DNA of 36,427 nt, from IMG/VR virus record IMGVR_UViG_3300030060_001728, positions 1 to 36,427 of that record. One strand, written 5' to 3'. The notes under the pieces were generated by a model. The model was not told the DNA's origin and did not search any database. It was given only the letters and a program-made list of their open reading frames with translations. Origin of the DNA: a virus. This document shows, piece after piece, positions 31,190 to 34,101 of the stretch; position 1 is the stretch's first letter; each line of letters starts with the position of its first letter. The position numbers and the translations under genes are program-made.

Positions 31190-31217
31190 AGAGGGGTCGC
31201 AAGACCCCTCTTTTTTT
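31190..31217 (+). terminator. Strong intrinsic terminator after gene 23
   Basis: The stem AGAGGGGTC (31190-31198) and GACCCCTCT (31203-31211) is 9 bp with a GCAA (GNRA) tetraloop, followed by an unbroken T run to 31217. It is the only strong rho-independent terminator I see in the window. It insulates capsid transcription from downstream genes. Confidence 0.93.
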
Positions 31218-31220
31218 GTT

Positions 31221-31228
31221 TATAAATA
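31221..31228 (+). promoter_or_regulatory. Late promoter TATAAATA 5 nt before the start codon
   Basis: The box begins 4 nt after the terminator T run and is followed by CTAGT and ATG 31234. By the T4 late rule the first transcribed base is the A of that ATG, so the mRNA would have no leader. No ribosome site is present between box and start. Confidence 0.75.
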
Positions 31229-31233
31229 CTAGT

Positions 31234-31833
31234 ATGGCAAGTAACATTACAATTCAAAGACAACCAACCAAGTTAGACTATGCAAGTCCGACTCAGTTTA
31301 AGTTTGGTATACATCAATTACCGAAGGTAGAGTTTTTTACTACTACGGCAACTGTACCAGCTATTGCACTCTCTGATGTTGTGATACCTACACCATTTAA
31401 GTCTATACCAATGCAAGGTGATCAACTTACATTTGATAATCTAAGTATAAGTTTTATTGTTGATGAGTTTTTAGAAAATTATCTCAGTCTTCATGAGTGG
31501 ATGACTGCAATAGGATTTCCTAAAAATAGAAAACAGTTCTCAGATTTTAAAACAAATACCTCAAACACTCCAATTGCAGTAAGAAGTGCAGCAAGTACAA
31601 GTGGTGATATTGGAGATGTTCAACCAGCCTCTCCTAACAACGCACTTTTCTCTGATGCAACATTAACAATTCTATCCAATAAAAATAATCCAATTGTAAA
31701 TGTTACTTTCAAAGATTTATATCCTGTTGCTTTGACTGCATTGGAATATAATCAAGCTGCCACTGATGTTGAGTATCTTACCGCATCTGTAGATTTTGCA
31801 TATCAGATATATGAAATTGAAGCAATTGTATGA
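31234..31833 (+). CDS. Tail-tube-family protein (gp19 paralogue, in the position of gene 3)
   Basis: A 199-residue protein. ATG 31234 (MASNITIQRQP) is chosen. A longer TTG start at 31216 would lie inside the terminator and upstream of the promoter start. The fold signature of tail tube proteins is visible: FKFGIHQLPKVEFFTTTATV, PAIALSDVVIPTPFKSIPMQ, GDQLTFDNLSISFIVDEFLE, NYLSLHEWMTAIGFP. T4 gp19, gp48 and gp54 share this fold. In marine T4-like phages the gene after 23 is often labelled tail completion protein gp3. I regard it as a tube-end or tube-initiator paralogue; the exact role is open. It reads away from the capsid terminator as a separate transcript. Confidence 0.75.
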   Translation: MASNITIQRQPTKLDYASPTQFKFGIHQLPKVEFFTTTATVPAIALSDVVIPTPFKSIPMQGDQLTFDNLSISFIVDEFLENYLSLHEWMTAIGFPKNRKQFSDFKTNTSNTPIAVRSAASTSGDIGDVQPASPNNALFSDATLTILSNKNNPIVNVTFKDLYPVALTALEYNQAATDVEYLTASVDFAYQIYEIEAIV

Positions 31834-31841
31834 TATAAATA
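31834..31841 (+). promoter_or_regulatory. Late promoter TATAAATA directly after the tube-family gene
   Basis: The box starts on the base after the TGA stop. The predicted first transcribed base is 31847, the first G of GAGCAGAG. The next recognised coding start, uvsY, is 143 nt further, far longer than any other late leader here. Confidence 0.75.
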
Positions 31842-31846
31842 GAAAC

Positions 31847-31976
31847 GAGCAGAGATTTGATAGACTTTAACAAATATATCAAATCTTCAGACTTAAATTC
31901 TGATGACAAACTCGGCAGCCTCATCAGGGTCAATATAGTAAACAAGGAGTAATCAAACTCTGCTCAACCTTTTTTT
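31847..31976 (+). ncRNA. Candidate structured late RNA upstream of uvsY
   Basis: Seen directly: the predicted 5' end GAGCAGAG (31847-31854) is the exact reverse complement of CTCTGCTC (31958-31965), which is 4 nt before a 7-T run (31970-31976). Inside, AGATTTGATA (31853-31862) pairs with TATCAAATCT (31877-31886). A 10-bp stem with two G-U pairs joins 31897-31906 to 31921-31930 around a 14-nt loop, CAAACTCGGCAGCC. ACTC of that loop could pair with GAGT at 31947-31950 as a pseudoknot. This looks like a closed multi-stem RNA of about 125 nt, either a separate small RNA or a 5' leader controlling uvsY. Alternative: a 31-codon ORF from TTG 31857 to TAA 31950-31952, without a ribosome site. It matches no RNA family I know. 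Confidence 0.45.
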
Positions 31977-31989
31977 ATGAAAGTATATT

Positions 31990-32421
31990 ATGACACTAGA
32001 AGAATTGAAACAAGAATCCTATAAAGACCTTCCTGTAAAAAATGTAGAGAACATAGATCAGGAATCTTTTTACAATCAAGAAATAAAAGCCAAGTGGTTA
32101 GATTACAAATCAAGGTTTGAACTTTTACTCGCAAGAAATAAAGGTGATTACCAAGTAATGTATCGTGAGAAGTGGGAGTACTATGGTGGTAAGTCTGATG
32201 CAAAAGTCTATGCAGCAAAACCTTTTGACCTAAAGGTACTAAAAACTGATTTACAAATTTACATCTCATCAGACAATGATATCATAGAACTCTCCAATAA
32301 AATTGCCTATCTAGAAACTACTATAAAATTTATAGATGGTGTAATCAAATCCATAGATAATCGTGGATGGGATATCAAACACGCCATATCATGGAAACAA
32401 TTTGAAGCTGGAATGATGTAA
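31990..32421 (+). CDS. uvsY: Recombination mediator UvsY
   Basis: A 143-residue protein (T4 UvsY: 137). The core reads YNQEIKAKWLDYKSRFELLL, KGDYQVMYREKWEYYGGKSD, KPFDLKVLKTDLQIYISSDN, DIIELSNKIAYLETTIKFID and ends DNRGWDIKHAISWKQFEAGM, the family hallmark. UvsY loads the UvsX recombinase onto gp32-covered single-stranded DNA. No good ribosome site precedes ATG 31990; the upstream bases are a T run and an AT-rich stretch. A short overlapping ATG ORF at 31977 is out of frame. The next gene begins directly after the stop. Confidence 0.92.
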   Translation: MTLEELKQESYKDLPVKNVENIDQESFYNQEIKAKWLDYKSRFELLLARNKGDYQVMYREKWEYYGGKSDAKVYAAKPFDLKVLKTDLQIYISSDNDIIELSNKIAYLETTIKFIDGVIKSIDNRGWDIKHAISWKQFEAGMM

Positions 32422-32964
32422 ATGGACGTTCAAGATTATATAAAAGTCTATGAGGACATTGTAGATAATAGTTTATGTAATGACCTTATGAAATTCAAGC
32501 ACGACTTTAAACCATCGTCCTTTTCTAGTCACGAAAAAGTTCATGAAGATTCTGCAAACCGTGTTGTGATGGATGACGTTTGGATTAAAAAAGACAGTGT
32601 GTTCTATAATCCTCTAAAAGATTGTTTTGCAAAAGCTGTCAGACAATATGAGTATGAGTTTCCTCTTTTTATGTGTGAGCATACTACAGATTTTAGAATC
32701 AACAAGTATGGGCCTGGCGGATTCATGTCAGAACACGTTGACAATATTCATCACAGTCATGGACAAAAGTGGGGATACCCTCATGTATCTGCACTATTGT
32801 ATTTGAATGATGACTATGAGGGTGGAGAGTTTGTTGTTGCTGGAAAAGAGATAAAACCAAACAAAGGGTCTTCAGTAATATTTCCCTCTAATTTTCTTTA
32901 TCCTCATCAAGCAAAAAAAGTTATAGAGGGAACAAGATGGAGCATAGTAGCATGGTTGATGTAG
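32422..32964 (+). CDS. 2OG-Fe(II) oxygenase, prolyl-hydroxylase-like
   Basis: A 180-residue protein with a complete 2-oxoglutarate/iron site: H105 and D107 in SEHVDNIH, distal H162 in YPHQAKKV, and R172 in GTRWSIVAWL, the arginine that binds 2-oxoglutarate. The double-stranded beta-helix strands around these (TDFRINKYGPGGFMSEHVD, HVSALLYLNDDYEGGEFVV, KGSSVIFPSNFLYPHQAK) fit the P4H-like family common in marine T4-like phages. It hydroxylates an unknown substrate, either protein or nucleic acid. It starts with the ATG right after uvsY stop and overlaps the following oxygenase gene by 28 nt. Confidence 0.88.
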   Translation: MDVQDYIKVYEDIVDNSLCNDLMKFKHDFKPSSFSSHEKVHEDSANRVVMDDVWIKKDSVFYNPLKDCFAKAVRQYEYEFPLFMCEHTTDFRINKYGPGGFMSEHVDNIHHSHGQKWGYPHVSALLYLNDDYEGGEFVVAGKEIKPNKGSSVIFPSNFLYPHQAKKVIEGTRWSIVAWLM

Positions 32965-33557
32965 TTTCGAGTTCTTTTTTTCCAACAGTAATTCATGAGT
33001 TTAGTTTAGATATTAATACTCTTGATAAAAAACATATGATAGAATATATCAAGAGAGGAAAAATAAAATCAACAGGAATGATACAAACTGAAGATGATCT
33101 TCATGTAATGTCGTACTTCAAAAAGTTCAAGGATGAAATTATAGAAGTAAATAAAAAAGTACTTGATAAGTTGGGGTATGAGTACGAAGATGTAATTATA
33201 ACTGGTATGTGGGGAAACGTATTATTTCCAGCTCAATCCCACTCTCCCCATACACATTCAAATAATTTTTTGTCAGGAGTTTTTTATCTACAGTCTGATG
33301 ATCTCTCTGGTAGTTTAGAATTTATTGATCCTAGATCACAAGCATTAGTTTTATCCCCTCGTATAAAAAACGGTAATTCAATGAATGTCTCCTCTGTTGG
33401 ATTAAACCCTAAAGAAAATACAGGAGTGGTATTTCCATCATGGTTACAACACTGGGTAAAAACAAATGACAGTAAAGAGAGAGTGAGTGTGTCATGGAAC
33501 ATACTTACCAAAGGTCATTACGGAACTACGGCAGGAAAAGCAAATGCGTACCTTTAA
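32937..33557 (+). CDS. 2OG-Fe(II) oxygenase-like protein, first of a paralogous pair
   Basis: A 206-residue protein of the putative 2OG-Fe(II) oxygenase type with the H-x-P-H-T-H pattern (PF13759 / TIGR02466 as I remember it). Conserved parts: FFPTVIHEFSLDINTLDKKH, MWGNVLFPAQSHSPHTHSNN (H102, H105, H107), FLSGVFYLQ, FIDPR, VVFPSWLQHWV (H172) and KERVSVSWN (R182). ATG 32937 has GAGGG 6 nt upstream; ATG 32952 (five residues shorter) is possible. About half of the aligned positions match the next protein, so they arose by tandem duplication. The substrate is unknown. Confidence 0.82.
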   Translation: MEHSSMVDVVSSSFFPTVIHEFSLDINTLDKKHMIEYIKRGKIKSTGMIQTEDDLHVMSYFKKFKDEIIEVNKKVLDKLGYEYEDVIITGMWGNVLFPAQSHSPHTHSNNFLSGVFYLQSDDLSGSLEFIDPRSQALVLSPRIKNGNSMNVSSVGLNPKENTGVVFPSWLQHWVKTNDSKERVSVSWNILTKGHYGTTAGKANAYL

Positions 33558-34101
33558 GTGTTTTCCTACATCTATTCATGAGGTTAAACTTAATATAGAT
33601 TCTCTTGATAAAAAACAAATGTTACAATATGTCCAACTTAAAGGTAAAGATGACGATCTTCATCGTATGTCTTTTTTTAGGTCACTTGCTGATAAAGTTT
33701 TAGAGTATTCAGAAAAGATTCTCAAAGACGGTGATTATGAGTTTGACAAAATAGAGATAACAAATATGTGGGGTAACTTATTAAGTGAAGGTCAATCTCA
33801 CGCACCACACACACATTCAAATAATATTTTATCTGGTGTTTACTATTTACAAAGTGGCTCACCTATTCAGTTTTTTGACCCTAGGCCTGCAGCAACAATT
33901 CTTAAACCAAGAAATACTCCTAATTGGGATAACTCAGGAATGATACAATTCGACTCTGTAGAGGATATTGCTCTTTTCTTTCCATCTTGGTTGATGCATT
34001 GGGTTCCATCAACATCAAAAGAACGTGCGAGTATCGCATGGAATGTTATAGTACGAGGTGAGTATGGAGAGCCTCACACATTACAAAATGCTTATATCTA
34101 A
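33544..34101 (+). CDS. 2OG-Fe(II) oxygenase-like protein, second of the pair
   Basis: A 185-residue protein. The start at ATG 33544 (MRTFKCFPTSIHEVKLNIDS) is preferred because AGGAAA lies about 7 nt upstream and the alignment with the paralogue begins here; the frame is open further upstream. Iron-site candidates are H86, H89 and H91 in SHAPHTHSNN, and H152 in SWLMHWV, with R161 in KERASIAWN. It shares MWGNLL, SGVYYLQ, FDPRP and FFPSWL with the copy upstream. It overlaps its neighbours by 14 nt on both sides, so the three oxygenases and uvsW form one tightly packed unit. Confidence 0.82.
   Translation: MRTFKCFPTSIHEVKLNIDSLDKKQMLQYVQLKGKDDDLHRMSFFRSLADKVLEYSEKILKDGDYEFDKIEITNMWGNLLSEGQSHAPHTHSNNILSGVYYLQSGSPIQFFDPRPAATILKPRNTPNWDNSGMIQFDSVEDIALFFPSWLMHWVPSTSKERASIAWNVIVRGEYGEPHTLQNAYI

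Follow-up and report, generated by a model that had tools for sequence, protein, structure and literature searches.

The intergenic region between gp3 and uvsY in the window, that is, the whole stretch of 36,427 nucleotides analyzed here (IMG/VR virus record IMGVR_UViG_3300030060_001728), carries an RNA element belonging to a structured family that matches no Rfam family and that, judging from the sequence comparisons presented below, is new. A structured phage RNA at this late start site had been proposed in a sequence-only reading of the window. The 102 distinct homologues, which display compensatory changes in the proposed helices, now give that proposal strong support and indicate that the element is almost certainly a conserved functional RNA, representing a genuine structured family and not a chance inverted repeat. 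The features of the locus are collected in Table 1.

Table 1. Coordinates of the RNA element, its parts and its neighbors in the window
Feature	Position	Strand	Remarks
gp3 tail completion gene	31234..31833	+	constant upstream neighbor; from annotated relatives
T4-type late promoter TATAAATA	31834..31841	+	spacer to RNA element, 5 nt
Structured RNA element, 119 nt, long subclass	31847..31965	+	covariance model and homologues
Helix P1, 5' strand GAGCAGAG	31847..31854	+	100% / 97% paired in two P1 blocks
Strand a (GATTTGATA)	31854..31862	+	pairs with b (hairpin) or, via TTTGAT, with c (extends P1)
Conserved CUUUAACA core	31865..31872	+	nearly invariant alignment columns
Strand b (TATCAAATC)	31877..31885	+	partner of a in state AB
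Helix P3, 5' strand GAC	31890..31892	+	covarying in relatives
Inner hairpin P3a, 5' strand CTGATGA	31900..31906	+	long subclass only; paired in 57/57 long
Inner hairpin P3a, 3' strand TCATCAG	31921..31927	+	pairs with P3a 5' strand
Helix P3, 3' strand GTC	31929..31931	+	middle pair passes phylogenetic null
Conserved AAUAUA after P3	31932..31937	+	nearly invariant
Conserved purine-rich stretch	31944..31949	+	AAGGAG here; AGAGAG in most relatives
Strand c (ATCAAA)	31952..31957	+	contains P1b (GAU:AUC); partner of a in state AC
Helix P1, 3' strand CTCTGCTC	31958..31965	+	pairs with P1 5' strand
U-run after P1 (TTTTTTT)	31970..31976	+	gap of 4 nt in window; enriched in family
uvsY	31990..32421	+	usual downstream gene; PHROG 231; ATG at 31990

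The element and its locus

The upstream gene had been assigned to a tube family. This label agrees with its PHROGs class (tail tube), but annotated relatives identify the product as gp3, the head-proximal tail completion protein. Downstream of the element, the gene order is uvsY, three 2OG-Fe(II) oxygenases and a UvsW-like helicase. The oxygenase genes are consecutive and mutually overlapping (32422-34101, between uvsY and uvsW), and two of the three belong to one PHROG family (81). The late promoter sequence TATAAATA occurs nine times in the window for 2.8 expected occurrences. The position of the copy in front of the element predicts a late transcript whose first nucleotide would open helix P1; the coordinates of this promoter and of the predicted start at GAGCAGAG were both verified. 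From there to the uvsY ATG the predicted leader measures 143 nt, versus 0-43 nt for the remaining TATAAATA sites of the window, which bears out the unusual length noticed earlier. For the late promoter at 31221, transcription is predicted to begin right at the ATG of gp3, which would produce a leaderless transcript.

The exact complement of the first eight nucleotides, CTCTGCTC, is indeed found 111 nt downstream, and such an exact downstream complement appears in 0.3% of trials in which the region was shuffled. The two internal stems that had been described are also present, one as a 9-10 bp hairpin (GATTTGATA/TATCAAATC) and the other as a 7-bp hairpin (CTGATGA/TCATCAG). Compared with shuffled sequences, the fold reaches z -2.5 over 134 nt and z -3.3 over 128 nt. 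In a covariance model search the element scores 82 bits (E 5.7e-16); it is the sole strong match in the window, where the model finds no second copy.

Neither the window element nor six divergent members match any family of Rfam 15 at curated scores, including manA, wcaG, PhotoRC, glnA and Downstream-peptide, and nothing of note appears at E values up to 10. No tRNA or tmRNA is found at the element. No published description of it was found in the literature searched either, although an earlier listing in a broad survey of phage RNA structures is possible.

Homologues and compensatory changes

The homologues were collected by searching viral contigs with UvsY, the core pattern, gp3 and further patterns. 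Nearly all of the 102 distinct sequences come from marine viral contigs, and their place is directly after gp3. They fall into two size classes: 57 long elements (110-119 nt), distinguished by an additional hairpin inside, and 45 short ones (81-94 nt). In 69 of 73 distinct homologues, 5 nt separate TATAAATA from the first base of the element. The next ATG mostly follows 11-27 nt after the element, also when the next gene is a foreign one. In eight records (L174, L185, L186, L187, L191, L192, L193 and L196) the element is retained with a P1 of 11 bp and with GACTATATATTACT in place of TATAAATA, the replacement having been seen in L186 and L191; it may be a variant late promoter or one of sigma-70 type.

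A covariance model built from 18 members recovers the entire 63-member reference set with E values of 1.4e-4 or better. In each of nine larger contigs, as in the complete Melnitz genome, it detects a single strong copy. In Melnitz (MZ577097) the RNA is predicted to begin with GAGCAGG at position 129850 and would measure about 85-95 nt. The only isolates with the element are four near-identical Methylophilales phages Melnitz, whose UvsY is 43% identical to that of the window group. In the Melnitz element (L149, 2391-2473), an extra hairpin, AGAAC/GTTCT, occupies the place of the AAAGAGAG stretch that is single-stranded in others. The model finds no match of weight in the Pelagibacter phages HTVC008M and Mosig, and none at the gp3-uvsY junction of the cyanophage and single-cell records L238-L241; in L239-L241, gp3 and uvsY abut or overlap. 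Cellular genomes contain 21 pattern matches, none of them convincing by the covariance model (best E 0.036), and these are taken as chance.

Pair counts were taken from alignment A6 (63 rows) because the first MAFFT alignments misplaced a GAGCAGA repeat; A6 is model-fitted and leans towards the proposed structure. In A6, 99.4% of the cells of the named pairs form standard pairs, some of them G:U, and six of the 13 named pairs are altered on both sides. None of 500 shuffles reached the observed pairing or change values, and in controls with slid partners pairing falls to 19-42%. The compensatory changes in P1 are A:U to U:A and C:G to U:A. P1b occurs among relatives as GAU:AUC, GGU:ACC and GUU:AAC, and P3 as GAC:GUC, GUC:GAC and AUC:GAU. 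Complementarity was one of the criteria by which an early segmentation delimited the triplets of P1b and P3, so that its counts alone are no test. The P3a hairpin is completely paired in all the long elements, and four of its seven pairs have alternative pair types (exchanges A:U/G:C, G:C/A:U and G:C/C:G). The comparison of homologues that had been suggested thus revealed compensatory changes in the proposed helices.

These changes were also placed on a UvsY protein tree, built without the element. The middle pair of P3 alternates between A:U and U:A about nine times, P1 changes three times and P1b four times. Because the tree is based on few columns and leaves many forks open, these counts are rough; recombination may contribute to them, and just three independent pairs lie on well-supported branches. 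On the same tree, the presence of the element changes six times and the long or short class nine times; gain or loss of the element has occurred on several occasions. When a phylogenetic null of our own making is applied, the middle pair of P3 is the sole individually significant pair, because the other helix positions hardly vary. This pair passes the null on a structure-blind alignment, which supports P3 only.

Alternative folds, unpaired core and U-run

Besides its helices, the family has an unpaired core formed by CUUUAACA, AAUAUA and AGAGAG, which is nearly invariant across the homologues. A CUUU-AAAG pseudoknot was considered and is not supported: it is possible in most members, but the change of CUUU to CUAU or CUAG is matched only in L021.

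Strand a has two potential partners. In the window, the GATTTGATA/TATCAAATC hairpin and the extended terminal stem are mutually exclusive. The a:b pairing of the long subclass has a mean z of -3.2 and its hairpin mostly measures 8-11 bp; in the short subclass, a:b is mostly absent and GAU:AUC is kept. In state AB many members retain about 4 bp of P1, and state AC forms the full stem of about 14 bp. When either state is forced on the 57 long elements, the modeled energy difference between a:b and a:c amounts to -0.3 +/- 1.8 kcal/mol. In lineages where strand a is altered (GATTATGAT, GAATTTGAT, TTTGGT or AGTGAT), strand b, strand c or both are altered to match.

A run of at least five T lies within 12 nt of the end of P1 in 43 of the 57 long elements and 18 of the 45 short ones, for a background of 14.5% at comparable places upstream of other genes. 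The enrichment is thus strongest in the subclass that has two states; L017 is a long relative with a clean U-run. The 4-nt gap between stem and T-run in the window was verified and represents a minority form, the gap being mostly 1-2 nt in those relatives that have a T-run. The earlier judgment that this is not a classical terminator holds for the window, whose element is not called by a simple scan for intrinsic terminators, but it has to be set against the family-wide enrichment of U-runs right after P1. This enrichment makes the formation of a 3' end at that place plausible, and the absence of the U-run in 60% of the short and 25% of the long elements implies that termination is not universal. 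In contrast to a local terminator hairpin, P1 has some 70-100 nt between its two strands. The same scan does call a canonical intrinsic terminator at 31190-31211, after the major capsid gene (AGAGGGGTCGCAAGACCCCTCT followed by TTTTTT).

Possible modes of action

The two folds and the U-run after P1 lead us to infer that attenuation is the favored mechanism. In that case, the element would be the 5'-terminal structured leader of the late transcript between gp3 and uvsY and would act as an attenuator, a reading that sequence and modeled energies suggest and that we give not quite an even chance. During synthesis, strand a would first pair with b to form the hairpin state; once the 3' part has emerged, a would shift to c and P1 would grow from 4-8 to about 14 bp before the U-run. 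The extended P1 and the U-run would then stop or pause RNA polymerase, producing a short RNA of some 85-125 nt and reducing read-through into uvsY and later genes. The balance would be set by a signal (a protein, a metabolite or the ribosome), presumably acting on the CUUUAACA/AAUAUA/AGAGAG core. The leader would probably also release the short RNA. A more ambitious version, in which a self-closed late-phase RNA switch, toggling in its long form between two near-equal folds, would meter read-through into the recombination genes, release an independently acting short RNA and sense a protein or metabolite present in the cell during infection, is speculative and, taken as a whole, doubtful.

In attenuators, or terminator/antiterminator leaders, two helices exclude each other, and one of them lengthens a stem by a U-run. 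The long subclass of the element resembles them in its two competing pairings, one of which would extend P1 near a U-run. The element differs from them in that its terminal stem spans the whole RNA from the first base and in that many members have no U-run.

The sequence-only reading had also considered a leader controlling uvsY. This is only partly supported: the element has the position of a 5' leader, but it stays behind gp3 in several records where the next gene is different or where uvsY has a promoter of its own. In L099, L102, L116 and L130, a gene encoding a protein of up to 456 aa (MSFVLGTAGVKRATV...) lies between the element and uvsY; other genes are found there in L083 and L107, and in L186 and L191 an oxygenase-like gene follows the element directly, before uvsY. 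In L200, L206 and L208, a TTGACA-type sigma-70 promoter separates the element from uvsY. Control specific to uvsY is weakened by this persistence, and the retention of the element when the next gene differs indicates that its partner is the late promoter following gp3, and not uvsY.

The same persistence, behind gp3 with other genes and upstream of a sigma-70-type promoter, would also suit a trans-acting late small RNA with its own late promoter, ends paired in P1 and a U-run terminator, acting on phage or host RNAs or proteins, uvsY being no more than its downstream neighbor. The single strong copy per record, including the Melnitz genome, is compatible with this possibility, as are the ends, which suit a self-closed RNA and are often followed by U-runs. 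Nevertheless, many elements, mainly short ones, have no U-run, so that a discrete 3' end is not assured, and the short, fairly constant spacing to the start codon suits a leader. Together with the 5' position, this spacing favors action in cis, and an RNA acting purely in trans seems possible but on the unlikely side.

The short distance to the start codon, kept even without U-runs, is also what could be expected of a 5'-end stabilizer, in which the first nucleotides are paired and hidden from decay enzymes, giving a longer life to the late mRNA without any switching. In nearly all members the first nucleotide predicted for the transcript is also the first of P1, and this helix is almost always formed. 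Yet a plain stabilizer would have no need for a nearly invariant unpaired core CUUUAACA/AAUAUA/AGAGAG, nor for two competing pairings, and this explanation is improbable. The 5' UTR of Escherichia coli ompA has a 5'-terminal stem that stabilizes the mRNA. The element is like such stems in its paired first nucleotides and in the short distance before the ribosome site, and unlike them in its conserved unpaired core and multi-helix fold.

A site acting at the DNA level (an operator, a MotA-like middle-promoter box, or a recombination or replication site) is very improbable. Inverted repeats also suit DNA-binding proteins, and in one subgroup (L035 and its kin) the core reads TGCTTTA, which matches the MotA box TGCTTtA (PMC9004378). 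However, this reading of CTTTA fits that subgroup only and was rejected, most members having AAACTTTA or AAGCTTTA, and the same study, where late promoters are listed by TATAAAT, reports no identifiable middle promoters in Melnitz (PMC9004378). Some pairs are G:U, which fits an RNA and not a DNA cruciform, the orientation and the distance to the promoter are fixed, and the compensatory changes link bases some 40-110 nt apart. Finally, a short peptide gene or leader peptide can practically be dismissed, since the 31-codon TTG ORF is open in the window but an ORF of that length exists in only two of the 102 distinct elements, its frame is broken by indels in near-identical relatives, and the conservation of this ORF instead of the RNA, as had been envisaged, did not occur.

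Returning to the preferred reading of a structured leader, other RNAs of T4-like phages offer points of comparison. The manA, wcaG and PhotoRC-II motifs (RF01745, RF01761, RF01717) are structured RNAs of cyanophages (PMC2864571). Like the element, they are found in marine T4-like phages as potential 5' UTRs of unproved function; they precede metabolic or photosynthesis genes, whereas the element begins at the late promoter of the gp3-uvsY junction. A glutamine riboswitch (glnA RNA) is known in Melnitz, Mosig and related phages (PMC9004378). It is an RNA switch from the same phage group, and Melnitz has both RNAs, but the glnA RNA lies at ssrA behind an early promoter, while the element follows a late promoter and does not match the glnA model of Rfam.

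The element recurs in lineages as distant as the window group and Melnitz and survives when the downstream gene changes. Control of T4-type late transcription is usually placed at the promoter, where activation is coupled to replication. A conserved folded RNA at one late start site would add control after initiation in marine phages. The cultured pair of Melnitz and Methylophilales H5P1 provides a defined and testable RNA, and the covariance model can be used to search any marine virome or metatranscriptome.

Loci that have no element show a short late leader, a TTGACA-type promoter or a gap of 10-12 nt without promoter. In the element-less relatives L025, L201 and L207, uvsY is apparently also driven from a TTGACA-type promoter. 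In nine others (L033, L034, L038, L039, L041, L043, L045, L047 and L060), a short late leader precedes uvsY and a small inverted repeat, TTCCATATAATGGAG, surrounds the ribosome site.
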